This document shows, piece by piece, positions 3,252 to 43,600 of a stretch of 64,000 nt of DNA. The DNA comes from Kofleriaceae bacterium. GTDB lineage: Bacteria; Myxococcota_A; Polyangia; Haliangiales; Haliangiaceae. A program made the translations under genes and the position numbers. A model generated the notes under the pieces. The model saw only the letters and a list, made by a program, of their open reading frames with translations, had not been told where the DNA came from and ran no database searches. The stretch spans positions 1-64,000 of the forward strand of contig JANXOP010000337.1 in assembly GCA_025357755.1 (NCBI GenBank). Direction: 5' to 3'. Positions within the stretch are counted from its first letter, which is position 1. Each line of letters opens with the position of its first letter.

Positions 3252-3269
3252 GTCGCCAAGCTTGGCGAC
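3252..3269. promoter_or_regulatory. 18-bp perfect palindrome, candidate activator (UAS) site
   Basis: GTCGCCAAGCTTGGCGAC is a perfect inverted repeat 3 bp after flgE. Its core CGCCA-N4-TGGCG recurs upstream of flhB (7968-7981). In both places the dyad centre is ~50 bp upstream of the GG of a sigma-54 promoter, which suggests an enhancer-binding-protein site. It could also act as a flgE terminator stem, but no T-run follows it. Confidence 0.55.
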
Positions 3270-3309
3270 ACCGCAGGCATCAGCCTAGTGAAGTCGCCGA
3301 GTTAGCGCG

Positions 3310-3324
3310 GGCACAGCGGCTGCA
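3310..3324 (+). promoter_or_regulatory. Sigma-54 promoter of the fliM operon
   Basis: GGCACAGCGGCTGCA matches the sigma-54 consensus (T)GGCAC-N5-TTGC(A/T), with GG (3310-3311) and GC (3322-3323) exactly 12 bp apart. A 17-bp block, TAGCGCGGGCACAGCGG, is identical upstream of flhB. The inferred +1 is near 3335, only 2 nt before the GTG start of fliM. Confidence 0.75.
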
Positions 3325-3336
3325 CTAGTAGAGCTC

Positions 3337-4275
3337 GTGAGTGATGGACTTCTAGACGCGGCAGAGCTCGAGGCGATTCAGAACGCCATCCGAGAAGTCG
3401 CGCCCAAGCGCAACTCGTACGGGCTCGACCCCGACGTCGAGCCGACGCGCTTGGCCCTCCTCGCCGACGACCGCAGTGGCGATGCCGCGCGGCCGTTGCT
3501 CCTCACGGTGATGAACCGCTGGGTGCGTCGCGCGACGAAGGCGCTCCGCAACCACCTGCCTGGCACCTGGCAGCTCGATGTCGTCGGCGCCGAATCGATC
3601 GATGGCCCGTCGGCCAAAGAAGAGCTCCGCGGCGCCTGGGTCGCCGGCGGCACCAGCGGCAATGCCGAGATCGTGTTCGCGGTCCAGGGCTCGATCATCG
3701 ACATCGCAGCAGCCAAGCGCTGCGGTGAAGCCGAGCCGACCTCGGACGGTTCGCGGCCACCCTCCGCCATCTCGCTCCGCTTGTTCCAACCCGTCGGTCG
3801 CACGTTGTTCGAGAGCCTCGCACCGTCGTGGCAGGAGATCTTCGACAACGAGCTCGTGCCGTCCGGTGACCTCGCGATCGTCCAGCGGTTGATCGAGGCC
3901 CGCCTCGTCGTGCGCGTCACCCTCGCCTTCAGCGGCGCGGTCGGTGGTCGAGTCCAGATCTACGCCCGCCCCGAGGCGCTCCTGCCCAAGCCCGCGGCGC
4001 TCGCCGCGATCAAGGCGAAGAGCCTCTCGGTCGCGAACGCGCTGATGAACGTCCCCGTCGAGGTCATCGTCGAGCTCGGCTCGCTCCGGATGTCGCTCGG
4101 CAAGATTCGCTCGCTCGAGCAGGGCTCGATTCACGTGCTCCCCAAGTTCGTCGATTCACGCGTGCCCGTGTACGTCGCGGGTGTGCTCAAGGCCTGGGCC
4201 AAGCCCGTCGTATGTCGCGGTGTGCTTGCCATCCAGATCATCTCCGTCGTGCACGGCCAAGGAACACAGTCATGA
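3337..4275 (+). CDS. fliM: Flagellar motor switch protein FliM
   Basis: FliM is the C-ring switch protein that binds CheY-P and links FliG to FliN. The 312-residue protein starts at GTG 3337. The N-terminus LLDAAELEAIQNAIRE is a divergent form of the LSQDEIDALL CheY-P-binding motif. The middle is CheC-like, and the C-terminal ~75 residues (NVPVEVIVELGSLRMSLGKI) form the SpoA domain. Divergence from classical FliM is strong in the middle, but the fliN neighbour and SpoA domain make the call solid. It leads the fliM-fliN-fliO-fliP-fliQ-fliR run behind a sigma-54 promoter. Confidence 0.88.
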   Translation: MSDGLLDAAELEAIQNAIREVAPKRNSYGLDPDVEPTRLALLADDRSGDAARPLLLTVMNRWVRRATKALRNHLPGTWQLDVVGAESIDGPSAKEELRGAWVAGGTSGNAEIVFAVQGSIIDIAAAKRCGEAEPTSDGSRPPSAISLRLFQPVGRTLFESLAPSWQEIFDNELVPSGDLAIVQRLIEARLVVRVTLAFSGAVGGRVQIYARPEALLPKPAALAAIKAKSLSVANALMNVPVEVIVELGSLRMSLGKIRSLEQGSIHVLPKFVDSRVPVYVAGVLKAWAKPVVCRGVLAIQIISVVHGQGTQS

Positions 4276-4547
4276 GTGATGACGAAACTTTCGATCCGCA
4301 GGCGCTCGAAACCCTGCTCCACGACGTGCCACTCGATGTCACGATCGAGCTCGGTCGGACCCGGCTGAACATCAGCGAGCTCGCGTCTCGCCTCGGGCCT
4401 GGCTCGATCATCACCCTCGACAAAGCGACCGGAGCGCCGCTCGACGTTCGCGTCAACAGCCGCCTCGTCGCGCGGGCTGAAGCGATCGCGATCGGCGAGC
4501 GCACCGGTATCCGCATCATCGAGCTCGTCAACGGGAAGGAGTCGTAA
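4272..4547 (+). CDS. fliN: Flagellar motor switch protein FliN
   Basis: This 91-residue protein is almost entirely a SpoA (surface-presentation) domain: VPLDVTIELGRTRLNISELA, then an acidic-hydrophobic loop and RVNSRLVARAEAIAIGERTG. FliN forms the base of the C-ring with FliM. The start ATG 4272 overlaps the fliM stop by 4 bp, which suits stoichiometric co-translation. The length fits the short FliN form without an N-terminal extension. Confidence 0.94.
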   Translation: MSDDETFDPQALETLLHDVPLDVTIELGRTRLNISELASRLGPGSIITLDKATGAPLDVRVNSRLVARAEAIAIGERTGIRIIELVNGKES

Positions 4548-4548
4548 G

Positions 4549-5652
4549 ATGCGCTTCGCGCTCGTCACCGCGCTCGCCCTCGCACCTGCGCTCGCACACG
4601 CCGACCCGGCGATCAGCTTCGACGTCGAGGACCACGGCCAGAGCGTCGAAGTCATCGCGCACAACGTCGAAGCGAAGAACCTCAACTTCTCCTCGGTGCG
4701 CTCGCGCATCGAGATCCAGGTCAACGGCGCGGCGATCGGCCCGATGCGGATGACGAGCGCGGATCCCACGGTGTTCCTCGTCGAGTTCGACGGCAGCGCG
4801 AATCGCGTGCTCAGCATCAAGACCCGCCTCGACCGCCCCGAGGTCAAGACGCTCGCCGGGCTCGCGAAGGCGACGCAGGTCGGCACCGACCTCCACATCG
4901 CCTTCCCGCGCCACGCCATGGCCGAGGTCGCGACGCCCGCGGCCGCACCCGCGCCGGTCGTCGCACCGGTCGTCGCACCGGTCGTCGCGCCGAAGCCCGT
5001 GCCGACGAAGATCGAAGCGGCCGTCAAGATCGAGCCGAAGATCGAGCCGAAGATCGAGCCCAAGGTCGAGCCCAAGATCGAACCGAAGCTGGCCGCCGCG
5101 ACCGAATCGCATCCGATTCCACCCGAAGCCAAGGACGGCTTCTCGACCTCGCCCGGGGTCTACGGGATCGGCGCGCTCGTCACGCTGCTCGCGTGCGGCT
5201 ACATGATGAAAAAGAAGAAGAAGGACGCCGCGGTCCTCTCGACGATCGACGTCGTAGCGCAGCGCGCGCTCGGCAACAAGGCGAAGGTCATGTGGCTCTC
5301 GGCGGGTGGTCGCGAGATGCTCGTCTCGGTCACTCAACAGAACGTACACATGCTCGGCTCGTGGTCGAAGACCGATCGCGAAGGCGCCGAGAAGGATCTG
5401 CCTCGGGCGACGCAGCTCGAGCGAGCCCTCACGTTCCAGCAGCAACTCGCGGCCGAGGTCGAAGCACCTGCCCTGGCACCCGCTCCGCAACTGCAGAGCA
5501 ATGCGGTGGCTGGCATCTTGAAGCTGCGCGCTCGCGCCGGCACGGTGCAGCCGACCCTCCCTCCGATCAACCCTGACATCGCGACCGACGACGAAGACGC
5601 CGACCTCGAGTGGGCCAAGGAGATGCTCACCGCATCGGGCGGTCGCCGGTGA
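4549..5652 (+). CDS. fliO: FliO-type export component with a periplasmic N-terminal extension
   Basis: FliO assists assembly of the FliP export pore. The protein (367 residues) is far longer than typical FliO (~100-140). It has a signal peptide (residues 1-20). Residues ~22-125 form a beta-rich domain resembling an AMIN-type envelope-binding fold (ISFDVEDHGQSVEVIAHNVE). A Pro/Lys linker contains PVVA and KIEP repeats. A transmembrane helix (GIGALVTLLACGYMM) precedes a Lys cluster and the FliO domain (ALGNKAKVMWLSAGGREMLV). The AMIN likeness is inferred from pattern only. It lies between fliN and fliP. Confidence 0.82.
   Translation: MRFALVTALALAPALAHADPAISFDVEDHGQSVEVIAHNVEAKNLNFSSVRSRIEIQVNGAAIGPMRMTSADPTVFLVEFDGSANRVLSIKTRLDRPEVKTLAGLAKATQVGTDLHIAFPRHAMAEVATPAAAPAPVVAPVVAPVVAPKPVPTKIEAAVKIEPKIEPKIEPKVEPKIEPKLAAATESHPIPPEAKDGFSTSPGVYGIGALVTLLACGYMMKKKKKDAAVLSTIDVVAQRALGNKAKVMWLSAGGREMLVSVTQQNVHMLGSWSKTDREGAEKDLPRATQLERALTFQQQLAAEVEAPALAPAPQLQSNAVAGILKLRARAGTVQPTLPPINPDIATDDEDADLEWAKEMLTASGGRR
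4954..5085 (+). repeat. Two in-frame 12-bp tandem repeat tracts in fliO
   Basis: At 4954-4989 the unit CCGGTCGTCGCA occurs three times (encoding PVVA repeats; the last copy has one change). At 5026-5085 five degenerate 12-bp units encode K(I/V)EP. Both keep the reading frame and build the periplasmic linker, so copy number could change linker length by slippage without a frameshift. Confidence 0.85.
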
Positions 5653-6335
5653 ACCCGCTTGGCCAGCTCGGGATCGACCCGAGCCAACTGCACCAGCAAT
5701 CGGGGACGACCGCCGGCCCGCTCGGGATGGTCGTCCTCCTCACGCTCGTGACGCTGCTCCCCGCGATCGTCCTGTCCTGCACCAGCTTCGTCCGGTTCGT
5801 CGTCGTCCTCGGCTTTGTCCGCACGGGCCTCGGCACACCATCGGCTCCGCCGAACCAGGTCCTCGTCGGGCTCGCGCTGTTCATGACGATCTTCGTCTCG
5901 GCGCCGGTCGCGATGGAGATGTACGACAAGGGTGGCAAGCAGTACTTCGCCGGCCAGCTCGACGAGCGACAAGCGCTCGAAGCCGCGCTACCGCCGCTCC
6001 GCAAGTTCCTCATGGCGCACACCGCGGATACCGATCTGCAACTCTTCCTCGAGGTCTCCAAGTCAGCGCGTCCCGCGACGATGGAAGAGATTCCGATGCG
6101 GGCGCTGATCCCGTCGTTCATCCTCTCGGAGCTCCGCATGGCCTTCAAGATCGGCCTCACGATCTTGCTGCCGTTCCTGGTCATCGACCTCGTCGCGGCG
6201 ACGGTGTTGACCTCGCTCGGCATGGTGATGGTGCCACCTAGCGTCGTCGCGCTACCCGCCAAGCTCCTCGTGTTCGTGATGATCGATGGCTGGCACCTCG
6301 TCGTCGAATCGCTCCTGCGCGGAGTCCGTGGATGA
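5649..6335 (+). CDS. fliP: Flagellar type III export pore protein FliP
   Basis: FliP forms the central export gate with FliQ and FliR. The start is GTG 5649, overlapping the fliO stop by 4 bp, for 228 residues. Typical motifs are LPAIVLSCTSFVRFVVVLGF, a helix containing NQVLVGLALFMTIFV, MRALIPSFILSELRMAFKIG and GMVMVPPSVVALPAKLLVFV. No cleavable signal peptide is obvious, so the N-terminus is short compared with enterobacterial FliP. Confidence 0.97.
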   Translation: MNPLGQLGIDPSQLHQQSGTTAGPLGMVVLLTLVTLLPAIVLSCTSFVRFVVVLGFVRTGLGTPSAPPNQVLVGLALFMTIFVSAPVAMEMYDKGGKQYFAGQLDERQALEAALPPLRKFLMAHTADTDLQLFLEVSKSARPATMEEIPMRALIPSFILSELRMAFKIGLTILLPFLVIDLVAATVLTSLGMVMVPPSVVALPAKLLVFVMIDGWHLVVESLLRGVRG

Positions 6336-6643
6336 ACGAAGACTCGCTGCTCGATCTGTGGCGCTCGGCGCTCACCATCGCTGCCCAGGTCGCTGCCCCG
6401 TTCCTGATCATCGGGCTCGTGATCGGGCTCGTGATCGCGATCGTCCAGACCGCGACCCAGCTGCAAGAGTCCGCGCTCACGTTCGTGCCGAAGCTCGCGG
6501 TCGCACTCGTCACGCTCGCGCTCGCCGGCCACTGGATGCTCGACAAGATCGGTGGCTTCGCCATCACCGCGTTCACCTCGACGGCAACGACCTCGACGAA
6601 CGCCGGGCCCACCGAGCTCGGCACCCCCGATAACCATCCATGA
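6332..6643 (+). CDS. fliQ: Flagellar export protein FliQ
   Basis: This 103-residue protein has the two hydrophobic hairpin helices of FliQ (APFLIIGLVIGLVIAIVQTA and TFVPKLAVALVTLALAGHWM) and the conserved TATQLQE-type loop between them. It is slightly longer than usual through a Thr-rich tail. ATG 6332 overlaps the fliP stop by 4 bp. Confidence 0.96.
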   Translation: MNEDSLLDLWRSALTIAAQVAAPFLIIGLVIGLVIAIVQTATQLQESALTFVPKLAVALVTLALAGHWMLDKIGGFAITAFTSTATTSTNAGPTELGTPDNHP

Positions 6644-7353
6644 TCGTCACGCCCGCAGAGCTCGGCGCGTTCCTCGTCGCGCTGATGCGCGTCGGTGCCG
6701 TCGCGTTCACGGCGCCCGTGATCGGCGACACCGGAGTACCGGTCCGCGCGCGCCTCGTGTTCTCCGTCTCCGTCGCGATCGCGCTCGCTGCGAATCGCCC
6801 CGGTGTCGAGCTCGACGAGCTCCCCGCGGCCGCGCTGATCGAGCTCGGCTCCGGGCTCGTCACCGGGCTCACCGCGCGCTTCGTGATGGCGCGTATCGCG
6901 AATGCGGGCCAGCTCATGGGTATGAGCCTCGGCCTCGGGTTCGCGTCGGAGTACGACGTCCACGCCGGGGAGAACGCCGGCATCCTGCGTACGATGTGCT
7001 CGACGCTCGGCAGCCTCGCGTTCATCTCGGCACATGGCCTCGAGGCGATCGTGCGTAGCGTCACGGTGCCGGCCTCGACCTTCAGCATCCTGGCTGGCAG
7101 CAACGAGCTCGTGCGCCAAGCCTGCTCGTCGTTCGGCTACGGGTTGTCGCTCGCCGCCCCGATCATGCTCGCCGCGCTCGTCGGCAACATCGGGCTCGCC
7201 GTGATGAACCGTGCTGCCCCAGCGGTGAACGTGTTCTCGATCGCCCTCTCGGCCGTTCTCCTCGTCGGTGTGGCGTTGCTCATCGCCACCGCGGGTGGCT
7301 TCGTCGCGGGTGCCATGGATGTGGCGCACGCGTCCGTGAATGTCCTACGATAG
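6640..7353 (+). CDS. fliR: Flagellar export protein FliR
   Basis: FliR completes the FliPQR export gate. The 237-residue polytopic protein contains the FliR signature region (LGSGLVTGLTARFVMARIAN, then GQLMGMSLGLGFASEYDVHA) and the C-terminal ALVGNIGLAVMNRAAPAVNV motif. It is about 20 residues shorter than the usual ~260. ATG 6640 overlaps the fliQ stop. Confidence 0.95.
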   Translation: MIVTPAELGAFLVALMRVGAVAFTAPVIGDTGVPVRARLVFSVSVAIALAANRPGVELDELPAAALIELGSGLVTGLTARFVMARIANAGQLMGMSLGLGFASEYDVHAGENAGILRTMCSTLGSLAFISAHGLEAIVRSVTVPASTFSILAGSNELVRQACSSFGYGLSLAAPIMLAALVGNIGLAVMNRAAPAVNVFSIALSAVLLVGVALLIATAGGFVAGAMDVAHASVNVLR

Positions 7354-7359
7354 CGGGAC

Positions 7360-7902
7360 GTGACCTCCTCGCCTTCTCGGGCTCTGATCCTGATCCTGCT
7401 CGATGTCGGCCTCGCTGGCTGCTCTGTCGACGATGGTAGCAGCGACCACTCGGCATGCCTGAGCTCGTCATCGGTCGATCTGTGCAGTGGGAGCACCGTG
7501 TGCACTGGCAGTGCGTGCACGGCCGCGTTCCCGCACGCCTACGTGATCACGAACATCTCGGCGACCGCGCCGAACATGAAGCCCGACGGCATGCCGTGGG
7601 ACACCGACGGCGACGGCACCCCCGATATCTACGTCGATATCTCCGTCGGTGGCGCGGTCGTCCAGTCGACACCTGTCAACCCCAACAGCTTCAACGCGAC
7701 CTTCGCCGGCCCGTTCACGATCACGCTCACCGAAGGGACCTCGCTCGATCTCCAGTCCTCCGACAAGGACGACCCGGGAAGCGAAGTGATCTACGACTGC
7801 CCGATTCCGATGGTCACCGCATCGCTCCTTCGGACCCGCTACGTCCTGTGCAGCGGGGTCGGTGGTGTGACCATCAACTACACGATCAATCCCGCGGAGT
7901 AG
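7360..7902 (+). CDS. Hypothetical lipoprotein between fliR and flhB
   Basis: The 180-residue product starts at GTG 7360. A signal sequence ends in the lipobox LAGC (Cys about residue 21). A Ser/Cys-rich linker follows, then a ~120-residue beta-rich domain with a DTDGDGTPDIYVDI segment and a SSDKDDPG segment. These acidic clusters resemble Ca-binding C2-like or calx-type loops seen in secreted proteins of delta-proteobacteria. No known flagellar family is recognised. It sits inside the export gene run, 7 bp after fliR and just before the flhB promoter, so co-transcription with fliM-fliR is likely. Function is unknown. Confidence 0.7.
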   Translation: MTSSPSRALILILLDVGLAGCSVDDGSSDHSACLSSSSVDLCSGSTVCTGSACTAAFPHAYVITNISATAPNMKPDGMPWDTDGDGTPDIYVDISVGGAVVQSTPVNPNSFNATFAGPFTITLTEGTSLDLQSSDKDDPGSEVIYDCPIPMVTASLLRTRYVLCSGVGGVTINYTINPAE

Positions 7903-7940
7903 CCCTCAACAAATGGCGCCAGCCCACACGAGGGCGTCAT

Positions 7941-7960
7941 TCCGGACCGTTCCGGACCGT
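7941..7960. repeat. Tandem duplication of TCCGGACCGT upstream of flhB
   Basis: TCCGGACCGT occurs twice back to back, preceded by a T. It lies between the lipoprotein stop and the CGCCA-N4-TGGCG dyad. It may be an additional activator site, since each unit contains the palindrome TCCGGA, or a recent slippage duplication. Confidence 0.8.
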
Positions 7961-7967
7961 TTGGTAG

Positions 7968-7981
7968 CGCCAGCCCTGGCG
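7968..7981. promoter_or_regulatory. CGCCA-N4-TGGCG dyad, candidate activator site for flhB
   Basis: CGCCAGCCCTGGCG is the same half-site pair with the same 4-bp spacer as the palindrome upstream of fliM. Its centre is 50.5 bp upstream of the -24 GG here, against 49.5 bp at fliM. This matched spacing supports a bound sigma-54 activator. Confidence 0.55.
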
Positions 7982-8024
7982 ACAGCGACGATCGTAAAAC
8001 GAGACATTTCGAGGACGTAGCGCG

Positions 8025-8039
8025 GGCACAGCGGTTGCT
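8025..8039 (+). promoter_or_regulatory. Sigma-54 promoter of the flhB operon
   Basis: GGCACAGCGGTTGCT matches the -24/-12 consensus with correct 12-bp GG-to-GC spacing (GG 8025-8026, GC 8037-8038). It shares a 17-bp identical core with the fliM promoter. The inferred +1 is near 8050, leaving about 7 nt before GTG 8057. Confidence 0.82.
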
Positions 8040-8056: not shown

Positions 8057-9097
8057 GTGAGCGAATCCGAGAAAACCCAGAAGCCAACTCCCAAGCGAGT
8101 TCGCGAGTTCCGCAAGCGCGGTGACATCGCCCTCTCGAAGGATGTGGTCTCTGCTGCGACCTTTGCCGGCGGCGCGATCGCGCTGCTCCTGACGGGCGCT
8201 ACCGGTTGGGCGGCGATTCGCGGCCTCGCGCGCGATGTCGCGATGTCGGCCGACGGCCTGAACCACGACGGCCTGACGAGCCAGGCCTTCCACGCATTCA
8301 CGAGCGCGACGTTCCCGGTCGTCATCGGCGCGGCGCTCGGTGCACTCGTGTCGATCCTCGGCCAGCTCGGTTGGCCGCCGGCATACAAGGGCATCAAGTT
8401 CGATCTCACGCGCATCAACCCGGGCGCGAACCTGATGAACACGTTCGGCCTCAACGCGGTCGTGCGTCGCACGGGTGGCGCCATGGCGAAGATGATCGCC
8501 GTCGGCCTCGTCGTCGCGATCGCGCTCGCGGGCACCGCGAAGGTGCATCCGACGACGCCGATCGCGTTCGCCGGCATGGCGGCATCGTCGATCGCTCGCG
8601 TGCTCGAGGCCGTCATCGGCGTGCTGCTCACGGTCTCGGGGCTCGATTACTACCTCGCGAAACGCAAGCTCACCAAGCAGATGAAGATGTCGACCGACGA
8701 GGTCAAGCGCGAGCACAAAGAGCAAGAAGGCGACCCGCACATCAAGGGCAAGCGGCGCCAGAAGATGCGCGAGATGGCGAAGCGCCGGATGTCGGTCGCG
8801 GTCTCGAAAGCCGATGTCGTGATCGTCAACCCGACGCACTACGCGGTCGCCCTCAAGTACGACGACAAGAAGGACGCGGCTCCGGTCGTCGTCGCAAAAG
8901 GCATGGACGAGTCGGCCGAAAAGATCCGCGAAGTCGCGCGCAAGCACGGCGTCCCGGTGATCAGTCGCCCGCCGCTCACGCGTGCACTCCACAAGCTCGT
9001 CAAAGAGGGCAAGCCCGTTCCGGCAAACCTCTATCGCGCGGTCGCTGAAGTCCTCGCGTACGTCTACCGGATCAAGAACCGGAGCGCCGCGTCGTGA
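8057..9097 (+). CDS. flhB: Flagellar export switch protein FlhB
   Basis: FlhB is the membrane protein that switches export from hook to filament substrates by autocleavage. The 346-residue protein begins with the family signature (SEKTQKPTPKRVREFRKRGD), has four hydrophobic segments in residues ~30-200, and carries the autocleavage motif NPTH at residues 258-261 followed by YAVALKY. GTG 8057 is supported because conservation begins at residue 4. It heads flhB-flhA-flhF-flhG-fliA and the flg genes behind it. Confidence 0.97.
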   Translation: MSESEKTQKPTPKRVREFRKRGDIALSKDVVSAATFAGGAIALLLTGATGWAAIRGLARDVAMSADGLNHDGLTSQAFHAFTSATFPVVIGAALGALVSILGQLGWPPAYKGIKFDLTRINPGANLMNTFGLNAVVRRTGGAMAKMIAVGLVVAIALAGTAKVHPTTPIAFAGMAASSIARVLEAVIGVLLTVSGLDYYLAKRKLTKQMKMSTDEVKREHKEQEGDPHIKGKRRQKMREMAKRRMSVAVSKADVVIVNPTHYAVALKYDDKKDAAPVVVAKGMDESAEKIREVARKHGVPVISRPPLTRALHKLVKEGKPVPANLYRAVAEVLAYVYRIKNRSAAS

Positions 9098-16676: not shown

Positions 16677-17789
16677 ATGCGCAACCTCCTGATCACCTCG
16701 CTCGTCGCATCGCTCGTCGCATCGCTCGTGCTCGCCAGCACGGCGCACGCCGACCGGATCAAAGATCTGGCGTCGGTCGAAGGCGTTCGCGACAACCATC
16801 TGACCGGCTTCGGACTCGTCGTCGGTCTCGATGGTACAGGGGACGACACGCGCTCGCCGGTCGTCAAGGCCGCGTTGACCAAGCTGCTCAAGCGCCTCGG
16901 CAACACGGTCAACCCGACCGACATGAAGATGAAGAATGTCGCCGCCGTGATGCTCACCGCCGAGCTCCCGGCCTTCGGTCGTCCGGGTCAGCAGATCGAC
17001 GTCACGATCTCGTCGATGGGTAACGCGAAGAGCCTCTCGGGAGGCACGCTGCTGATCGCGCCGCTCAAGGGCCCCGATGGCAAGACCTGGGGCCTCGCGC
17101 AAGGCGCGCTCACCGTCGGTGGGTTCACCGCCGATAGTGCGAGCGGCGGCTCGACGAAGAAGAACCACACGCTCGTCGGTGAGATCCCCGGCGGCGCCAC
17201 GCTCGAGATGGCAGCGCCGACCGTCTTGCCGAGCAAAGAGCTCACGCTGATCCTGGGTACCGCCGATTTCACGACCGCCACCCGCGTGCAAGCCGCGATC
17301 GAAGCGGTGCTACCGGGCCTGGCCCACGCGCGCGATGCGGGTGCGATCACGGTGACGATCGATAGCGAGTGGAAGCCGAAGGTCCCCGAGCTGATCGCGA
17401 AGCTCGAGGCGATCGAGGTCGATCCCGATGTCAAAGCGAAGGTCGTGGTCGACGAGAAGACCGGCACGATCGTCGTCGGAGAAGCCGTCACGCTGCGGAC
17501 CGCCGCGATCACGTTCGGCTCGCTCACGATCGAAGTCACCGAAGCTCCGATCGTCTCGCAGCCCGCCGCGTTTAGCGGCAAGGGTGCCAAGACCAAGGTC
17601 GTGCCGAACAGCACGATCAAGGTCGACGAAGAGGCCGGCCACCCGATGAAGGTCGTGAAAAAGGCGACCACCGTCGGTGATGTCGCGGCCGCGTTCGCCT
17701 CGCTCGGCGCCAAGCCCCGCGACCTCGTCTCGATTCTTCGCGCCCTCAAGGCCGCTGGTGCCTTGCGTGCGGAGCTGGAGACGATGTGA
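16677..17789 (+). CDS. flgI: Flagellar P-ring protein FlgI
   Basis: FlgI forms the periplasmic P-ring. The 370-residue protein has a signal peptide ending STAHA. The family signature RIKDLASVEGVRDNHLTGFG, then LVVGLDGTGDD, is followed by LTKLLKRLGNTVNPTDMKMK, then NVAAVMLTAELPAFGRPGQ. The C-terminus has VGDVAAAFASLGAKPRDLVS, then ILRALKAAGALRAELE. The signal peptide coding sequence contains a small in-frame LVAS repeat. Confidence 0.98.
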   Translation: MRNLLITSLVASLVASLVLASTAHADRIKDLASVEGVRDNHLTGFGLVVGLDGTGDDTRSPVVKAALTKLLKRLGNTVNPTDMKMKNVAAVMLTAELPAFGRPGQQIDVTISSMGNAKSLSGGTLLIAPLKGPDGKTWGLAQGALTVGGFTADSASGGSTKKNHTLVGEIPGGATLEMAAPTVLPSKELTLILGTADFTTATRVQAAIEAVLPGLAHARDAGAITVTIDSEWKPKVPELIAKLEAIEVDPDVKAKVVVDEKTGTIVVGEAVTLRTAAITFGSLTIEVTEAPIVSQPAAFSGKGAKTKVVPNSTIKVDEEAGHPMKVVKKATTVGDVAAAFASLGAKPRDLVSILRALKAAGALRAELETM

Positions 17790-18574
17790 CCCTCAAGCCG
17801 ATCACCCCCGGTCCGCTCGCAGCCCACACGCTGAAGACAGATCCTGCGCAGACCGCCGCGAAGCAACTCGAGTCGTTCTTTCTACGGCAGTTGCTGTCCG
17901 AGGCAAAGACGCAGAGCGGTGGAGACGGCGGCTTCGCTGGCGATACGTTCAAGTCGATGTTCGATGAAGCGGTCGCCGACAAGATGTCGAGCGCCGGCGG
18001 AATCGGCCTCGCCGACATGTTCGCGAAGCAGCTCGGCGCCAAGGCGCAGGGCAGCGACGCGCCGGGCACCCAGATCACTGCGACGCTCCATCCCGCGCAC
18101 TCTTTCGGCAGCATCAACGGACTCGGCGAGCTCCCCAGGGGCCCCGAGCTCGACGGCATGCCTCGCTTCACGATGCCGGTAGCTGGCACACCCACCTCCG
18201 GGTACGGCTCTCGTATCGATCCGATCCAGCACAAAGAGATCAAGCACCCCGGCTTCGACCTCGCGGCGAAGACCGGCACGCCGGTCTCGGCGGCGGCCGC
18301 AGGAACCGTGATTTCTGCGGGCCCGGCGGGTACCTACGGCAACCTGGTCACGGTCCGCCACGGCAATGGTGTCGAGACCCGATACGCCCACCTCTCGGCA
18401 ACCACGGTGAAGGCCGGCGACAAGGTCGAACAGGGGCAGCAGATCGGCAATGTAGGCACGACCGGATACTCGACCGGTCCTCATCTTCACTTTGAAGTTC
18501 GCAAGGATGGCCAAGCGATCGATCCTGCTCCGTTTTTACCTATCAACACGCAATCCCAGCGGCCGAAGCTCTAA
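17786..18574 (+). CDS. flgJ: FlgJ rod-binding domain fused to an M23 peptidase
   Basis: Residues ~17-85 form the Rod-binding domain of FlgJ (AAKQLESFFLRQLLSEAK, then DTFKSMFDEAVADKMSSAGG). Residues ~130-252 form a LytM/M23 zinc endopeptidase with intact ligands H154 and D158 (HPGFD), H202 and HLH at 233-235. Classical FlgJ has a glucosaminidase instead. The protein presumably caps the rod and opens peptidoglycan during rod growth by cutting peptide cross-links. There is no signal peptide, consistent with export through the flagellar gate. GTG 17786 overlaps flgI by 4 bp. Confidence 0.93.
   Translation: MTLKPITPGPLAAHTLKTDPAQTAAKQLESFFLRQLLSEAKTQSGGDGGFAGDTFKSMFDEAVADKMSSAGGIGLADMFAKQLGAKAQGSDAPGTQITATLHPAHSFGSINGLGELPRGPELDGMPRFTMPVAGTPTSGYGSRIDPIQHKEIKHPGFDLAAKTGTPVSAAAAGTVISAGPAGTYGNLVTVRHGNGVETRYAHLSATTVKAGDKVEQGQQIGNVGTTGYSTGPHLHFEVRKDGQAIDPAPFLPINTQSQRPKL
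18543..18569 (+). promoter_or_regulatory. Sigma-28 (FliA)-like promoter of flgM
   Basis: TCAA (18543-18546), a 15-bp spacer and GCCGAAGC (18562-18569) fit the sigma-28 consensus TAAA-N15-GCCGATAA, with five of five matches in the GCCGA core. It lies at the end of flgJ, 21 nt before the flgM start. The expected +1 is near 18576. A promoter of the same form precedes fliC. Confidence 0.6.
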
Positions 18575-26588: not shown

Positions 26589-26671
26589 CGCTTCGGGAGC
26601 TGATCGTCATTCTCGACGACGGCCTACATGTCGCCCTACTTCTAACTGGGCAGAATCAGCCGCCCCGAACC

Positions 26672-26687
26672 TGGCGCGATGCTCGCA
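26672..26687 (+). promoter_or_regulatory. Sigma-54 promoter of pseC-pseB-pseG
   Basis: TGGCGCGATGCTCGCA matches TGGCAC-N5-TTGCA with two mismatches and exact GG-GC spacing (26673-26674, 26685-26686). The inferred +1 is near 26698, leaving about 3 nt before GTG 26701. The rest of the 112-bp intergenic region shows only a weak TCGTC-N6-GACGA dyad at 26605-26620. Confidence 0.65.
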
Positions 26688-26700
26688 ATAGCGATGGTCC

Positions 26701-27858
26701 GTGCTCCCCTACGGCCGTCAAACCATCGACGAAGCGGATATCGCCGCGGTCGTCGAGGTCCTGCGCTCGCCGTTTCTGACGGCGGGTCCGGTCGTCGCGA
26801 AGTTCGAAGAGGCGCTCGCGGCCAAGGTCGGGGCTCGCCACGCAAGTGTCTGTGCGAACGGCACTGCGGCGCTTCATCTGGTCTACGCCGCGCTCGGCAT
26901 CACCGCCGGCGACGAGATCATCACGACCCCGATCACGTTCTCGGCCACCGCCGCGGCCGCGTACTACGTTGGCGCAACGGTCCGGTTCGCGGACGTCGAT
27001 GCGGCTGGAAATCTCGACCCCGCGAGCGTCGAAGCGCTGATCACCCCGCGGACTCGCGCGATCGTGGCGGTCCATCTCGGTGGGATGCCGGTCGACCTCG
27101 AGGCTTTCCACTCGATCGCGCAACGCCATGGCATCGCGCTGATCGAAGATGCGTGTCACGCACTCGGCGCGACGTACCATGGCTCGCCGATCGGCTCGCG
27201 CAGCGATGCGACGGTCTTCAGCTTCCATCCCGTCAAGCACATCACCACCGGTGAAGGCGGCGGGATCGTCACCCCGAGCCCGACGCTCAAACACCGGATC
27301 GACAAGCTTCGCGCGCACGGTATCGAGCGCGACGCCACGCAGATGCAGTCCGCACCCGATGGCATGTGGGCCTACGAGGTCCAGGAGCTCGGCTGGAACT
27401 ATCGGCTCTCGGATCTCTCCTGCGCACTCGGCCTCTCGCAGCTCGCGAAGCTCGATGGCTTCGTCACCCGCCGGCGCGCGATCGCGGCGCTCTACCGCAC
27501 CGAGCTCGCGCGCGTCTTTCCGGACGGTGGCGTCACGCCGCCGCCCCGCTTCGCCGAGCGCGAGAGCTCGTATCACCTGTTCGCCGTCGCGATCGATTTC
27601 CCGCGCTTCCACACGACCCGCAAGGTCGTCACGGAGCGCCTCGCTGCGGCGGGTATCGGCACGCAAGTTCACTACATCCCGCTGCTCCAGCATCCGCTGC
27701 ACGCGCAGCGCTGCCCCGATGAAGCCCGCCGCGCCCGTCCCGGCGCCGACCAGTACTACGCACGCACTCTCAGCATCCCGATGTTTCCCGCGATGACCGA
27801 TGCCGATGTCGGTGAAGTCGTCGCCCAGCTCGCACGCGCCCTCCGAGAACAGCCATGA
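26701..27858 (+). CDS. pseC: UDP-4-amino-4,6-dideoxy-N-acetyl-altrosamine transaminase PseC
   Basis: PseC is the PLP-dependent aminotransferase (DegT/DnrJ/EryC1 family) of the second step of pseudaminic acid synthesis. The 385-residue protein begins LPYGRQTIDEADIAAVVEVL, the PseC-type start that supports GTG 26701. The PLP lysine is K179 in FHPVKHITTGEGGG, and the FEDACHA-equivalent motif reads IEDACHALGA. It overlaps pseB by 4 bp. Confidence 0.93.
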   Translation: MLPYGRQTIDEADIAAVVEVLRSPFLTAGPVVAKFEEALAAKVGARHASVCANGTAALHLVYAALGITAGDEIITTPITFSATAAAAYYVGATVRFADVDAAGNLDPASVEALITPRTRAIVAVHLGGMPVDLEAFHSIAQRHGIALIEDACHALGATYHGSPIGSRSDATVFSFHPVKHITTGEGGGIVTPSPTLKHRIDKLRAHGIERDATQMQSAPDGMWAYEVQELGWNYRLSDLSCALGLSQLAKLDGFVTRRRAIAALYRTELARVFPDGGVTPPPRFAERESSYHLFAVAIDFPRFHTTRKVVTERLAAAGIGTQVHYIPLLQHPLHAQRCPDEARRARPGADQYYARTLSIPMFPAMTDADVGEVVAQLARALREQP

Positions 27859-28868
27859 CCAAATCGATCCTCGAAAACGCCACCACCACCGTCCTCGATG
27901 GCAAGTCCGTGCTCGTCACCGGTGGGACCGGGTCCTTCGGCCGCGCGTTCGTCGAGAAGGCGCTGACCTCGAAGGCGAAGAAGGTCATCATCTTCTCGCG
28001 CGACGAACAGAAGCACTACAACCTCGAGCGCCACTTCGGCGGCGACAAGCGGGTCCGCTTCTTCGTCGGTGACATCCGCGATCGCGATCGACTGCAGACC
28101 GCGCTGCGCGACGTCGACATCGTCGTCCACGCCGCCGCGATGAAGCACGTACCGATCTGCGAGTACAACCCGATCGAAGCGGTCCAGACCAACGTCAACG
28201 GCGCGCGCAACCTGATCGAAGCCGCGATGGCGAACGGGGTCGAGCGCGTGATCGCGCTGTCGACCGACAAGGCGGTCTCGCCGGCGAACCTCTACGGTGC
28301 GACGAAGCTGTGCATGGAGAAGCTGCTCACCGCCGCGAATGCCTACTCCGGCGATCGCGCGACGCGGTTCTCGCTCGTGCGCTACGGCAACGTGATGGGC
28401 TCGGCCGGCAGCGTCATCCCGCTGTTCCGCAACCAGATGAAGCAGGGCAAGCTCACGATCACCGACGCGCGCATGACGCGGTTCTGGATCGAGATGCCCG
28501 AGGCGGTCGCGCTCGTGTTGCGCGGCCTCGAGCTGATGCAGGGTGGTGAGATCTTCATTCCGAAGTTGCCGACCTCCGATATCGAGACGCTCGCCGAAGC
28601 CGTCGCCCCGGGGGTCGCACGCACGGTCGTGGGCATTCGCCCTGGCGAGAAGCTGCACGAAACCCTGATCTCCGTCGAAGAAGCGCGGCGCACGTCCGAT
28701 ATGGACGATTTGCTCGTGGTCTGGCCGGAGTTCTCGTTCCACTCGGCGACCCTGCAGAACGTTCGTGCCGGCACGCCCGTCCCCGAGAACTTCAATTACT
28801 CGAGCGATATCGCCGAACCTCGTATGGGTCTCGAAGAGACGCGTGAGAAGGTTGCGCGCGTCGCATGA
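27855..28868 (+). CDS. pseB: UDP-GlcNAc 4,6-dehydratase (inverting) PseB
   Basis: PseB catalyses the first step of CMP-pseudaminic acid synthesis: dehydration with C5 inversion of UDP-GlcNAc. The 337-residue extended SDR has the NAD motif TGGTGSFG at residues 22-29. FSRDEQKHYNLERHF, HAAAMKHVPICEYNPIEAVQ and LSTDKAVSPANLYGATK are highly characteristic. It overlaps pseC and pseG by 4 bp each. Confidence 0.97.
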   Translation: MTKSILENATTTVLDGKSVLVTGGTGSFGRAFVEKALTSKAKKVIIFSRDEQKHYNLERHFGGDKRVRFFVGDIRDRDRLQTALRDVDIVVHAAAMKHVPICEYNPIEAVQTNVNGARNLIEAAMANGVERVIALSTDKAVSPANLYGATKLCMEKLLTAANAYSGDRATRFSLVRYGNVMGSAGSVIPLFRNQMKQGKLTITDARMTRFWIEMPEAVALVLRGLELMQGGEIFIPKLPTSDIETLAEAVAPGVARTVVGIRPGEKLHETLISVEEARRTSDMDDLLVVWPEFSFHSATLQNVRAGTPVPENFNYSSDIAEPRMGLEETREKVARVA

Positions 28869-36046: not shown

Positions 36047-37089
36047 GCGATCAGCTCCCACGCGAGCGGCGTGCCGCGCACGATCTTGGTCCTGGCGTGG
36101 CTCGCGAGCACCCGCGGCAGCTCGCGCGGCGCGAGTCCGTGACCGGGGCGGATCGAGCGCACGTTCGTGCGCGTGAACGGTTCACCGACGTCGATGTCGG
36201 CCGCCGCATAGAGCGAGCGACGGAACTTGCGCGAGCCCGCCTCGGCGACGGGCCGGTTCGACGAACCATCGCCGAGCGCGGACCAGGCCGCCTTGCAGCC
36301 ACTCGCGACCTGCGCGAACTCGTGCGGCTCGAGCGAGAACCCCGCGTCGGGTCCACCGTCGGCGCACGCGAGGGTGAGATGTTTTTCGACCATCATCGCG
36401 CCGCGGGCGACGGCGGCGATCGGGACGGTCGAACCCGGTGAATGGTCCGAGATGCCTACTTCGTCGGCCCACTGATGGAGCGCGTCGAGCCGGCGTAGGT
36501 TGATCTGATCGATCGGGGTCGGATAGCCCGACACGCAGTGCAGCAGCACGATACCGCTGGCACCGTGGCTGCGGGCGACCTCGCACGCCTCGGCGATCTC
36601 GGCGTCCGAGGCCATGCCGGTCGACATGATGATCGGCTTTCTGGTCTTCGCGGCCGCCGCGATCAGCTCGAGATCGACGAGCTCGAACGAAGCGATCTTG
36701 AAGGTCGGCGCACCGAGACGATCCAGACGCTCGACCGATTCTTCGTCGAACGGGGTCGAGAACACGACGAGGCCGCGTTGCGCGCCATGCGCGAACAGCT
36801 CGGCGTGCCACTCCCATGGAGTCTGCGCCTCGCCGTAGAGGTCCCACAGGTTGCGGCCCTGCCAGGGGCCATCGTGGATCGCGAAGTCGCCTTCGCGCAG
36901 CTCGAGCGTCATCGCGCTCGGCGTGAACGTCTGCAGCTTGATCGCATCGCAGCCAGCATCGGCTGCAGCGTCGATGATCGCGTGTGCACGCGCGAGGCTG
37001 CCGAGGTGATTGGCCGAGAGCTCGGCGACGATGAAGGGCGCGTGGCCTTTACCGATCGGCCGGCCCCCTGTGGGTGTGTCGATGATCAT
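36043..37089 (-). CDS. pseI: Pseudaminic acid synthase PseI
   Basis: PseI condenses the 6-deoxy-altrose product of PseG with phosphoenolpyruvate to form pseudaminic acid. The 348-residue protein has the NeuB-type TIM barrel (IVAELSANHLGSLARAHAII, DAIKLQTFTPSAMTL, MSTGMASDAEI, LLHCVSGYPTP, GISDHSPG) and a C-terminal SAF antifreeze-like domain (RSIRPGHGLAPRELPRVL). SANHLGS and the length distinguish it from sialic acid NeuB. It overlaps fliL by 4 bp. Confidence 0.95.
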   Translation of the reverse strand: MIIDTPTGGRPIGKGHAPFIVAELSANHLGSLARAHAIIDAAADAGCDAIKLQTFTPSAMTLELREGDFAIHDGPWQGRNLWDLYGEAQTPWEWHAELFAHGAQRGLVVFSTPFDEESVERLDRLGAPTFKIASFELVDLELIAAAAKTRKPIIMSTGMASDAEIAEACEVARSHGASGIVLLHCVSGYPTPIDQINLRRLDALHQWADEVGISDHSPGSTVPIAAVARGAMMVEKHLTLACADGGPDAGFSLEPHEFAQVASGCKAAWSALGDGSSNRPVAEAGSRKFRRSLYAAADIDVGEPFTRTNVRSIRPGHGLAPRELPRVLASHARTKIVRGTPLAWELIA

Positions 37090-37601
37090 TGGACCATGAA
37101 CTCCTCGAAGAACATCCGGCGAATCTTGTGCTCGCCGACGACGGCCTCCATCTTCTTCATCAGCGCATCGCGGATGGTGTCCTTCGCGGTCGCGCCGAGC
37201 GTGTCCTTGACGTGGAGCCCCGAGAGATAGCCGAGCACCTCGTCGCGCAGGACCTGCTTGCTCTTCTCGATCGACTCGGCATCGTGCGGGCCGACCAGCT
37301 CGAGCTGGACCTTCATCTTGAGGTAGCGCGCGTTGCCAGGCTCGTCGAGGTTGACGACGAAGGGCTCGAGGGGAAGGACCGGACCCGTGATCTCCTTGCC
37401 CGATTTCTCTTCGTGGTGCTCGGGCGCGGTCGCGGCCGCGGCCGGCGACGCCGTCATGATCTTGAAGGCACCGAAGCCACTCGCACCGAGGTTGAGCACC
37501 AGCAGCGCCATCACGATCGGCGAGGTGCCACCCTGCTTTTTGGGTTTGGCCGCAGCAGCATGCTCGTCTGCTGGTGCTTCTTCTGGCGGTGCGTCACTCA
37601 T
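37086..37601 (-). CDS. fliL: Flagellar basal-body protein FliL
   Basis: FliL surrounds the stator and supports torque. The 171-residue protein has a cytoplasmic Ala/Pro/Lys tail, one transmembrane helix (SPIVMALLVLNLGASGFGAF) and the periplasmic FliL domain (GPVLPLEPFVVNLDEPGNAR, then YLKMKVQLEL). The C-terminus reads IRRMFFEEFMVQ. It is detached from the main flagellar run and instead leads the sugar operon (pseI through the MinD-like gene) behind a sigma-54 promoter. A purine-rich AAGGGG lies 6 nt before ATG 37601. Confidence 0.92.
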   Translation of the reverse strand: MSDAPPEEAPADEHAAAAKPKKQGGTSPIVMALLVLNLGASGFGAFKIMTASPAAAATAPEHHEEKSGKEITGPVLPLEPFVVNLDEPGNARYLKMKVQLELVGPHDAESIEKSKQVLRDEVLGYLSGLHVKDTLGATAKDTIRDALMKKMEAVVGEHKIRRMFFEEFMVQ

Positions 37602-37614
37602 ACGGTCCCCTTAG

Positions 37615-37630
37615 AGCAACGGTCGTGCCG
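37615..37630 (-). promoter_or_regulatory. Sigma-54 promoter of the fliL-pseI operon
   Basis: Read on the minus strand, CGGCACGACCGTTGCT is a full match to the core GGCACG-N4-TTGCT with correct spacing. The inferred +1 is near 37604, only 3 nt before ATG. The AAGGGG ribosome-site-like run would then lie upstream of the transcript. The gap 37602-37689 otherwise shows nothing clear. Confidence 0.85.
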
Positions 37631-37689
37631 CGCCATCTCATCGTGATCACTCGATCCGGCTCGCACGTACGACGTCAAAACTGTCGGCA

Positions 37690-39511: not shown

Positions 39512-39596
39512 CTAGTGTCGGCAGGGTTGACGGCGCCGCTCCATCGAAGACGCGTGCCAACTCGGCCAGGCCCGTGAATTCACGGAAGGGACGGGC

Positions 39597-39611
39597 GGCA
39601 CGGCGCTCGCA
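39597..39611 (+). promoter_or_regulatory. Sigma-54 promoter of the REC-kinase/NtrC regulator pair
   Basis: GGCACGGCGCTCGCA matches GGCACG-N4-TTGCA with one mismatch and exact GG-GC spacing (39597-39598, 39609-39610). The inferred +1 is near 39622, 2 nt before GTG 39624. If correct, the regulator pair is under control of the sigma factor it activates. Confidence 0.65.
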
Positions 39612-39623
39612 ACAACGCACCGC

Positions 39624-40799
39624 GTGGCGAACCCAGCTGTGCCCCTCCAGATCGACGGCGTTGTGCAACAACCCGTCGAGGCGCGCGCCACGGTGTCGGG
39701 CGTGCACACGCTCGCTCCCACGGGCGCGCGCATCCTGATCGTCGACGATAACCCGCGCGTGCGTCGCTCGACTGCAGCCGCCCTTTCGCGGATCGGTTTC
39801 CATGTCATGACGGCCGAGGACGGAGCTCCCGCGATCAGCCTCGCCGAGACGACCGCACCCGACCTCGCGCTCGTCGATTTCGAGATGCCCACTCCCGGCA
39901 TCGTCGTCGTCAAACGCCTCAAGGAGCTCTACGGTAATGCCGTGTGGGTGGCGGTGCTCTCCGGGGAAGACTCCGACGAGATGCGCAGCGCCTGCTTCGA
40001 TGCAGGTGCCGATGACGTCATCGCGAAGCCCGCACCGATTCCGGAGCTTCACCGCCGGATGGTGGCGGCCGCCCGGACCCAGCGCGCCTTCGTAGATTCT
40101 CGTATCGCGCGCGAACGTACCGATCGCTTGCTCGCCTATGGGGCAGAAGCCGCCGCGATGCTCGCGCACGACCTCAATAACGGCCTCGCGGTCGCGCTCT
40201 GCAACATGGACTACCTCGAGTCCACCGCGGTGGAGGCCCTCGATACGGATCAGTCGCAGGCGCTGACCTCGACGCGTAACGCGCTCCGCCGGATGTCAGG
40301 CCTCGTCGCGAACTTCGTCGATATCGCGCGGTTCGAAGACGCCGCGGTCAAGCCACACTGCACGCTCAATCATGTCAAGGGCCTACTCGAGAGCGTGATC
40401 GAAGTTCACGCGGTCGGTTGCAAGGTCGCCGTGACGATCGAGTGCGAACCCGAGCTGACCGGCTGGTTCGACGTCGCGCTGATCGAGCGCGTCCTCCACA
40501 ACCTCGTCGGCAACGCGGTCCGCTATTGCCAGTCGGACGGCCAGATCCGGGTGTCTGCAACCCGCGCCGATCTGGCCGACCCTCAGAGTGTGGATATCGG
40601 CGTCTTCAACAATGGTCCCGAAATTCCGCCCGAGGTTCAGGGGAATTTATTTGGCAAGTATTCGAAGGGTACGAACGGCAAACGTGGATTCGGTTTGTAC
40701 TTTTGCCGCTTGGCCTGCGAGGCGCACAACGGACGGATCGTGTATCGTGGCACGAGCGATGGGCCGACGTTTTTCGTTAGGTTGCCCGGCCGAGGTTAG
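39624..40799 (+). CDS. Receiver-histidine kinase hybrid (REC first)
   Basis: The 391-residue protein has an N-terminal receiver (ILIVDDNPRVRRS; phospho-acceptor D85 in LALVDFEMP; K in VIAKPAPIPEL) followed by a kinase core: H182 in AAMLAHDLNNGLAV, N box LHNLVGNAVRYC, G box NGKRGFGLYFC. No membrane segment. Start GTG 39624 is tentative; in-frame GTGs downstream exist before the receiver at residue 36. It is followed 20 bp later by the NtrC-type regulator, so the two are probably a cognate pair. Confidence 0.88.
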   Translation: MANPAVPLQIDGVVQQPVEARATVSGVHTLAPTGARILIVDDNPRVRRSTAAALSRIGFHVMTAEDGAPAISLAETTAPDLALVDFEMPTPGIVVVKRLKELYGNAVWVAVLSGEDSDEMRSACFDAGADDVIAKPAPIPELHRRMVAAARTQRAFVDSRIARERTDRLLAYGAEAAAMLAHDLNNGLAVALCNMDYLESTAVEALDTDQSQALTSTRNALRRMSGLVANFVDIARFEDAAVKPHCTLNHVKGLLESVIEVHAVGCKVAVTIECEPELTGWFDVALIERVLHNLVGNAVRYCQSDGQIRVSATRADLADPQSVDIGVFNNGPEIPPEVQGNLFGKYSKGTNGKRGFGLYFCRLACEAHNGRIVYRGTSDGPTFFVRLPGRG

Positions 40800-40819: not shown

Positions 40820-42232
<1,413 letters not shown>

Positions 42233-42329: not shown

Positions 42330-43370
42330 CTACGCCGCGTACTTGCGGAGCTTCTCGACGAGCGTGGTGCGGTTGAGGCCGAGGAGCGCGGCGGCTTCCG
42401 TGCGGTTGCCGTTCGCCTTCGAGAGTGCGCGGTCGATCAGCTTGCGCTCGACAGCTTCGAGCGCGCTGCGCAGATCGAGGGTCGAATCGTCGAGGACGGG
42501 CGCTTCCATCTTCGGAATCGGGCCCGAGCCTTCGGCGGTCACCACGAGGGCGACCGGCTGCGTGCTGAGGCGAGCCACGCGCGACGACGAGGTCGGGAGC
42601 GAGAGATCGCCTTCACAGATTTGCGTGCCGCGAGCGAGGAGGGCCGCGCGCTCGATCTTGTGGGCGAGCTCGCGAACGTTGCCCGGCCAGCTGTAGCTGC
42701 GAATCGCGGCGCGTGCCGACGGCTCGAGGGTCATCAGCTCGCGTCCACTGCGCTCGCACATGCGGACGAGCGTGAGGTCGACGATGATGTCGAAGTCATC
42801 GCCACGGTCACGCAGCGCGGGGAGGTGGAGCGGGACGACCGAGAGGCGGAAGTAGAGGTCCGCGCGGACCGTGCCTTCGGCGACCATCTGCTCGAGGTTG
42901 CGGTGCGTCGCGGCGACGATGCGGACGTCGATGGCGGTGTCGCTATCGGCGCCGACCGGGCACACGACGCGCTCTTCGAGCACGCGGAGCAACTTCGCTT
43001 GTGCCGAGAGCGGCAGGTCACCGATCTCGTCGAGGAACAGCGTGCCGCCTTGTGCCGAGAGGAAGCGACCCGCGCGCGCGGTCATCGCACCGGTGAAGGC
43101 GCCCTTCACGTGGCCGAACAGCTCGGCTTCGATGAGCGTCTCGGGGAGCGCTGCGCAGTTGACCGGGATGAACGGCTTCGCGCGGCGGTTCGAGGCGCGA
43201 TGAGCGGCGCGGGCGAACAGCTCTTTTCCCGATCCGGTCTCGCCGGTGATCAGGATCGAGCAGTCGGTGTTCGCGACGCGCCGGATGGTGTCGAGAGCTT
43301 CGACAATCTCCACCGACTCGCCGACGATTTCCGAAGCAAACTGCCGGCGCCAGGTTTTGAGCTCGCTCAT
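42330..43370 (-). CDS. Stand-alone sigma-54 activator (FlrA/FleQ-like, no receiver)
   Basis: The 346-residue protein is an AAA+ sigma-54 activator without an N-terminal sensory domain: Walker A GETGSGKE (43-50), GAFTGA intact at 90-95, Walker B GGTLFLDEIGDLPL, then SYSWPGNVRELAHKIER. The Fis HTH is NGNRTEAAALLGLNRTTLVE. Lacking a regulatory domain, it may be constitutively active or controlled by its own sigma-54-type promoter. The gene converges on the NtrC regulator and may act one tier above it. The start is supported by the AAA+ boundary at residue ~15. Confidence 0.92.
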   Translation of the reverse strand: MSELKTWRRQFASEIVGESVEIVEALDTIRRVANTDCSILITGETGSGKELFARAAHRASNRRAKPFIPVNCAALPETLIEAELFGHVKGAFTGAMTARAGRFLSAQGGTLFLDEIGDLPLSAQAKLLRVLEERVVCPVGADSDTAIDVRIVAATHRNLEQMVAEGTVRADLYFRLSVVPLHLPALRDRGDDFDIIVDLTLVRMCERSGRELMTLEPSARAAIRSYSWPGNVRELAHKIERAALLARGTQICEGDLSLPTSSSRVARLSTQPVALVVTAEGSGPIPKMEAPVLDDSTLDLRSALEAVERKLIDRALSKANGNRTEAAALLGLNRTTLVEKLRKYAA

Positions 43371-43386: not shown

Positions 43387-43403
43387 TGCTACTAGCGGGC
43401 CAA
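43387..43403 (-). promoter_or_regulatory. Sigma-54 promoter of the stand-alone activator
   Basis: On the minus strand TTGGCCCGCTAGTAGCA matches (T)TGGCACG-N4-TTGCA with two mismatches and correct spacing. The inferred +1 is near 43376, 6 nt before ATG 43370. A half-site CGCCAAGCC lies upstream at about 43469-43461 (minus strand). Confidence 0.6.
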
Positions 43404-43488: not shown

Positions 43489-43520
43489 CGTACCCCAGCG
43501 AGATACCCTGACGGGGTACG
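43489..43520. promoter_or_regulatory. Inverted repeat CGTACCCC-N16-GGGGTACG
   Basis: Perfect 8-bp arms are separated by 16 bp, with a further internal ACCCTGACGGGGT arrangement. It lies about 120 bp upstream of the stand-alone activator and 80 bp downstream of the response regulator stop (43601). It may be an operator, or a terminator stem for the regulator operon. No other feature is clear in 43371-43600 apart from the sigma-54 promoter. Confidence 0.5.
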
Positions 43521-43600
43521 CGATCACCCTGCGGTAAAAACTTGGTGTGCGATCACACAGAAAGATTCACGTTGCAGGATGTAGGAGCTTTTGATTTCGC

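Follow-up and report, generated by a model that had tools for sequence, protein, structure and literature searches.

Among the flagellar regulators that work with sigma-54, FleQ of Pseudomonas has a described box, GTCAAT-N2-ATTGAC, with GTCA/TGAC halves (PMC10723142). For P. fluorescens and P. putida, chromatin immunoprecipitation sequencing did not yield a FleQ consensus (PMC6120874). In Caulobacter the NtrC-type activator FlbD acts on conserved ftr elements 5′ of sigma-54 flagellar promoters (PMC3930126). A site consensus for FlrA of Vibrio was not found in the literature searched, and no flagellar regulator site is described for the Myxococcota in the open literature that was searched, subscription papers being outside this coverage. 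In this work we analyse a 64-kb stretch of DNA (the window) from a 67.8-kb contig of a Kofleriaceae bacterium, the genome of which (G000) comprises 8.6 Mb in 450 contigs. A short dyad lies upstream of the flagellar genes fliM and flhB in this window. We propose that it is an upstream activator site of sigma-54 flagellar promoters, bound by a stand-alone, FleQ-like activator encoded in the same window; on the sequence comparisons given below we put the probability of this at roughly 0.78.

The element and its promoters in the window

A sequence-only reading of this DNA had claimed two dyads with identical half-sites and spacer before two sigma-54 promoters, and both are present. Exact CGCCA-N4-TGGCG dyads were found at 3254-3267 (CGCCAAGCTTGGCG) and 7968-7981 (CGCCAGCCCTGGCG), with no third exact copy in the 64 kb. 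The sigma-54 elements are GGCACAGCGGCTGC at 3310-3323 (fliM) and GGCACAGCGGTTGC at 8025-8038 (flhB). The claimed distances from dyad centre to -24 GG, 49.5 bp at fliM and 50.5 bp at flhB, were borne out, as was the run of 17 bases (TAGCGCGGGCACAGCGG) that the two promoters have in common. At fliM the dyad forms the middle of a perfect palindrome of 18 bp, GTCGCCAAGCTTGGCGAC (3252-3269, plus strand), which is the predicted upstream activator site; the -24/-12 promoter, GGGCACAGCGGCTGCA (3309-3324, plus strand), stands before the gene 3337-4275, which is fliM by its FliM/FliN C-terminal domain and its fliM orthologues in relatives. At flhB the predicted site AGCGCCAGCCCTGGCGAC occupies 7966-7983 and the promoter GGGCACAGCGGTTGCT occupies 8024-8039, both on the plus strand, before the FlhB gene at 8057-9097. 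The DNA 5′ of the flhB site (7914-7962) also holds a palindrome, TGGCGCCA, sharing the site's GCGCCAGCCC letters, and a direct repeat, TTCCGGACCG-TTCCGGACCG.

The footprint of the element was obtained from the upstream regions of fliM, flhB and stand-alone-activator loci of relatives. At the same place these carry CGTCA-N4-YGCCGAC, which aligns without gaps to CGCCA-N4-TGGCGAC in the window. The element occurs in both orientations, and the consensus is therefore symmetric, GTCGNCA-N4-TGNCGAC. Judged by this alignment CGCCA-N4-TGGCG is a local form of the longer element, found in two of at least six G000 sites; the dyad that had been put forward as the site is thus retained as part of a predicted upstream activator site, and not as the consensus.

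Five copies lie in the window, before fliM, flhB, fliL, a kinase/response-regulator operon and a DegT aminotransferase operon. They were scored with a model trained without G000 and compared with 2000 dinucleotide shuffles per site. The fliM site reaches 16.5 bits at 49.5 bp (0/2000 shuffles as good), the flhB site 11.3 bits at 50.5 bp (7/2000), the fliL site 13.3 bits at 50.5 bp (1/2000), the kinase-operon site 17.6 bits at 71.5 bp (0/2000) and the aminotransferase site 18.5 bits at 61.5 bp (0/2000), all distances being from site centre to -24 GG. A sixth copy was predicted before flgB of the same genome and then found, as GGCGTCAAGGTCGCCGAC at 60.5 bp on contig C17.

At fliL the predicted site GCCGACAGTTTTGACGTC (37671-37688) and the promoter CGGCACGACCGTTGCT (37615-37630) are on the minus strand, before the gene at 37086-37601. 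The predicted kinase-operon site, GTCGGCAGGGTTGACGGC (39517-39534, plus strand), has two unequal halves in reversed orientation; its promoter, CGGCACGGCGCTCGCA (39596-39611, plus strand), precedes genes for a REC-HisKA-HATPase kinase (39624-40799) and an NtrC-type response regulator (40820-42232). The predicted aminotransferase site, ATCGTCATTCTCGACGAC (26603-26620, plus strand), and promoter, TGGCGCGATGCTCGCA (26672-26687, plus strand), are followed by a DegT/DnrJ aminotransferase gene (26701-27858) and a polysaccharide-biosynthesis dehydratase gene (27855-28868), which are likely nonulosonic-acid (flagellin glycosylation) genes. The aminotransferase orthologue of one relative, G005, has the same layout of site and promoter, at 50.5 bp.

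The bare dyad is a different matter. CGCCA-N4-TGGCG occurs at 50 places in the 8.6-Mb genome against 129 for a backwards control pattern, hence the 14-bp dyad is not enriched, and a sigma-54-like promoter (above 11 bits) lies within 140 bp of just two copies, both in the window. With 48 of 50 copies lacking such a promoter the dyad alone was rejected as a marker. Among these 48 only one extends as TGGCGACA in either direction. The lone further exact dyad that extends as TGGCGACAC is at locus L217 (G000 contig C390), where no adjacent sigma-54 promoter was found. A loose pattern of dyad plus promoter was no commoner genome-wide than its control, and calling the regulon by whole-genome dyad and promoter patterns was abandoned as too loose at high GC, where coding matches swamp the signal. 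It is the placing of a site at a set distance from a sigma-54 promoter that exceeds chance, since shuffles rarely match the in-phase scores and the relatives keep the arrangement. On frequency and random placement across the genome, the dyad as first proposed therefore fails and the full element passes.

The many promoterless dyads, together with the start of the fliM copy two bases past the flgE stop codon, would suit a palindrome that arose by chance or a hairpin that terminates transcription of flgE. Yet no T run follows the dyad, the same site also stands before genes without a terminator context, and the site of relatives is a dyad with mismatches that would form a weaker hairpin and is nevertheless in phase with the promoter. 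The missing T run and the imperfect dyads led us to reject the hairpin, and the held-out fliM loci described below contradict both versions of this explanation, which we regard as hardly credible.

Spacing of site and promoter in relatives

Before fliM and flhB the element was aligned in 11 genomes, with its centre 48.5-50.5 or 59.5-61.5 bp from the -24 GG. In two genomes (G005 and G008) the flhB promoter is present and the element was not found there. A scan of the flagellar contigs of these genomes gave more sites, before flgB, fliL, flhA and the genes for the kinase and the aminotransferase; 30 of the 32 strong-site promoter pairs fall inside the two ranges just given. The flgB promoters of relatives carry the element in eight of nine cases, at 50.5, 59.5-61.5 or 71.5-72.5 bp; in G016 no promoter was found near flgB. 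The positions are about one helical turn apart, placing the sites on one face of the helix, as looked for in a sigma-54 upstream activator site. The single fixed distance of the sequence-only reading holds at fliM and flhB of the window, but it is one of three positions.

The phasing was evaluated with a symmetrised, leave-one-genome-out model run on 57 strong sigma-54 promoters, with a site threshold of at least 10 bits. Such sites are at 49.5, 60.5 or 71.5 bp (±1) in 32 of 36 promoters, where 9% is expected by position. The model is trained on the fliM and flhB sites of other genomes and the result is partly circular for these two genes; for flgB, fliL, flhA and the kinase and aminotransferase genes the same analysis is non-circular. 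Orthologous promoters are not independent events, and to this extent binomial figures for such counts overstate the evidence, a point that weighs against our reading. That said, simple inheritance is argued against, because the site position of orthologues often differs by a whole turn.

A class-wide FliM search supplied 12 genomes outside the training set with a sigma-54 promoter before fliM. In all 12 the best site is in phase: two at 49.5 bp, eight at 59.5-60.5 bp and two at 71.5 bp. At more distant fliM loci (G128 and G131) neither such a promoter nor the element was found. We also scanned 80 activator loci chosen by protein similarity, from Geobacter relatives, Nitrospira, gammaproteobacteria and others, and a strong in-phase site was seen at the Kofleriaceae locus only; this is weak evidence of absence, as the loci are short and the promoter model had learned from GC-rich sites. 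GTCGNCA-N4-TGNCGAC probably marks the sigma-54 flagellar promoters of a Kofleriaceae-like lineage of the Haliangiales, within the class Polyangia of the Myxococcota.

The candidate binder

It had been suggested from the sequence that the dyad is bound by one of the two sigma-54 activators of the window. This now appears well supported, with the dyad read as part of an upstream activator site, and the evidence favours the stand-alone protein over the response regulator. The stand-alone activator (42330-43370, minus strand) has the domains of a bacterial enhancer-binding protein, an AAA+ domain (PF00158) and a Fis-type helix-turn-helix (HTH, PF02954), with the GAFTGA loop visible in the alignment; a domain search found no N-terminal receiver. 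Its outgroup orthologues do carry Response_reg, with strong matches in G016 and G030 and weak ones in G032, G034 and G039. In this genus and in G019-G029 the orthologous open frames are about 350-390 residues, suggesting a loss of the receiver in these genomes.

The HTH motif GNRTEAAxLLGLNRTTLxEK is invariant in 10 aligned orthologues that span four element-bearing families. A high-scoring orthologue is found in 20 of the 21 FliM-positive genomes (the order plus family f9), and most FliM-negative congeners have only background matches from other sigma-54 activators. Linkage points the same way, as no activator other than the stand-alone type is linked to all the clusters with readable linkage. 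It is the single such activator found on the 95-kb flagellar contig of G016, and its gene is directly 5′ of flgB in G016, G030, G032 and G034. In G010 (L161, 8894-11271) a kinase gene with a sigma-54 promoter and a site at 69.5 bp adjoins the stand-alone gene with no response regulator in between, unlike G000, G005, G008 and G011; the sites are present all the same.

The same element could instead be bound by the NtrC-type response regulator (40820-42232, plus strand), a FleR/FlrC-like protein that would then control its own operon as well. Its gene lies in the cluster beside that of its kinase, the protein is a full sigma-54 activator with receiver, AAA+ domain and Fis-type HTH, a good site stands before the operon, and the gene adjoins the stand-alone gene in G000, G005, G008, G011 and G015. 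Against this, G016 and G010 both have sites, yet no response regulator of this type was found on the flagellar contig of the first or next to the kinase of the second; beyond the genus the HTH of this protein varies while the element is kept. Matches also occur in congeners without FliM, several of the best being at other loci and probably paralogues. So many matches at other loci make its distribution weak as evidence, and synteny was relied on instead. We consider this protein an unlikely binder.

At four loci 5′ of response-regulator paralogues (L134, L139, L131 and L136) there is a sigma-54 promoter (a strong one at three of them), followed by a gene for a 229-234 aa sigma-factor-like protein and an NtrC-type regulator. 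This layout occurs in congeners with and without FliM, and no copy of the element was found at these promoters.

Some points tell against the stand-alone protein. G002 (L091) and G004 (L088) keep the activator and its promoter and no FliM or FlhB was found in them, which may mean that flagella were lost recently, that contigs are missing, or that the activator has a second role or other targets. G025 and G148 have FliM and the site with only background-level activator matches, in genomes that are 82% and 71% complete, respectively. Synteny was read from fetched contigs only, and an unlinked response regulator may bind the site. The kinase/response-regulator operon may be the likeliest exception, as autoregulation would look alike there.

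The promoter of the stand-alone gene itself, TGGCCCGCTAGTAGCA (43387-43402, minus strand), has no copy of the element. A half-site, CGCCAAGCC, had been claimed upstream of it; the letters are there, but the best element score is 3.1 bits, equalled by 65 of 2000 shuffles, and it is not kept in congeners, the orthologous promoters of G005, G010, G014 and G015 having no element that we could find. This region carries another dyad, GGGT-N8-ACCC (43514-43529, minus strand), centred 120.5 bp 5′ of the -24 GG. The same dyad lies 106.5-128.5 bp from the -24 GG in eight of the nine genus members examined (loci L086-L092), including two without FliM or FlhB, and is probably the site of a separate regulator feeding the stand-alone activator.

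The need of the stand-alone promoter for another activator also bears on whether the two encoded activators bind the element in turn, early and late, or whether a third, unlinked regulator does so. Both orientations and three positions are in use, and the better half differs between sites. However, a single consensus fits all the sites, these promoters showed no other kind of site, and the data can be explained without a third regulator; we judge either arrangement very improbable.

If the stand-alone protein is the binder, its dimer would bind a site about 75, 86 or 97 bp 5′ of the transcription start, on a single helix face, and would remodel the sigma-54 polymerase via the GAFTGA loop of its AAA+ domain. 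The targets in G000 would be fliM, flhB, fliL, flgB, the kinase/response-regulator operon and the sugar-aminotransferase operon. We infer from this an early tier of the FleQ/FlrA style, in which the master activator also turns on the two-component pair while its own sigma-54 promoter, lacking the site, is driven by another input through GGGT-N8-ACCC. More tentatively, and at somewhat less than even odds, this could be a class-wide form of flagellar control in the Myxococcota: a FleQ-like master without a receiver (in this genus and certain neighbouring ones), its own sigma-54 promoter under GGGT-N8-ACCC, and three site positions only, where position and strength may tune individual operons.

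These results make a flagellar regulator site of the Myxococcota, and its target genes, readable from sequence, and the quantised distances between site and promoter offer natural promoters in which dependence on the helix face could be tested cleanly. Elsewhere in the window, the gene 17786-18574 encodes a FlgJ-like rod-binding domain fused with an M23 peptidase domain.

Comparison with known flagellar regulators

The Caulobacter FlbD/ftr system resembles the proposed one in its NtrC-type activator and conserved upstream elements. FlbD, however, is the longer protein and acts together with FliX, and the NCBIfam FlbD model reaches 294 bits in the window against a cut-off of 750, far below it.

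The Vibrio FlrA-FlrBC cascade likewise has a master activator, then a sigma-54-controlled kinase/NtrC-type pair, then sigma-28, an order that we would expect here too; the window has a gene for FliA and a weak match to FlgM. The difference from FlrA is that the master in the window has no receiver.

Among activators of solved structure, FleQ is the best match of the stand-alone protein (281 bits, HTH included, compared with 218 bits for the central domain of FlrC). The two can be aligned end to end in the AAA+ and HTH parts, with 155 of 331 residues identical (47%) and RTTLVEK-RKY in the HTH common to both, whereas the response regulator aligns to FleQ over the AAA+ part only. FleQ is known to act on fliL, flhA and the fleSR two-component genes, among others, a set resembling the one predicted here, and both proteins are sigma-54 activators that head, or in our case would head, a flagellar hierarchy. 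The window also encodes FlhF and a MinD-like FlhG/FleN candidate.

There are differences too. The stand-alone protein lacks a receiver and its gene is under a sigma-54 promoter. FleQ contacts cyclic diguanosine monophosphate (c-di-GMP) through R144, R185, N186, E330 and R334. Of these, R185 and R334 are kept in the stand-alone protein, N186 is replaced by A and E330 by L, and R144 is unaligned, so the full set is not present; R144, R185 and R334 are discussed in PMC10723142. By analogy, the stand-alone protein would work like FleQ, but we do not file it as FleQ, having no receiver and several changed c-di-GMP residues. The two sites share GTCA-like halves, with a spacer of 4 here versus 6 in the FleQ box and a conserved outer GTC/GAC here. 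No FleQ consensus was obtained in the two pseudomonads, whereas the element described here is sharp and phased, which makes it a sharp comparison for FleQ.

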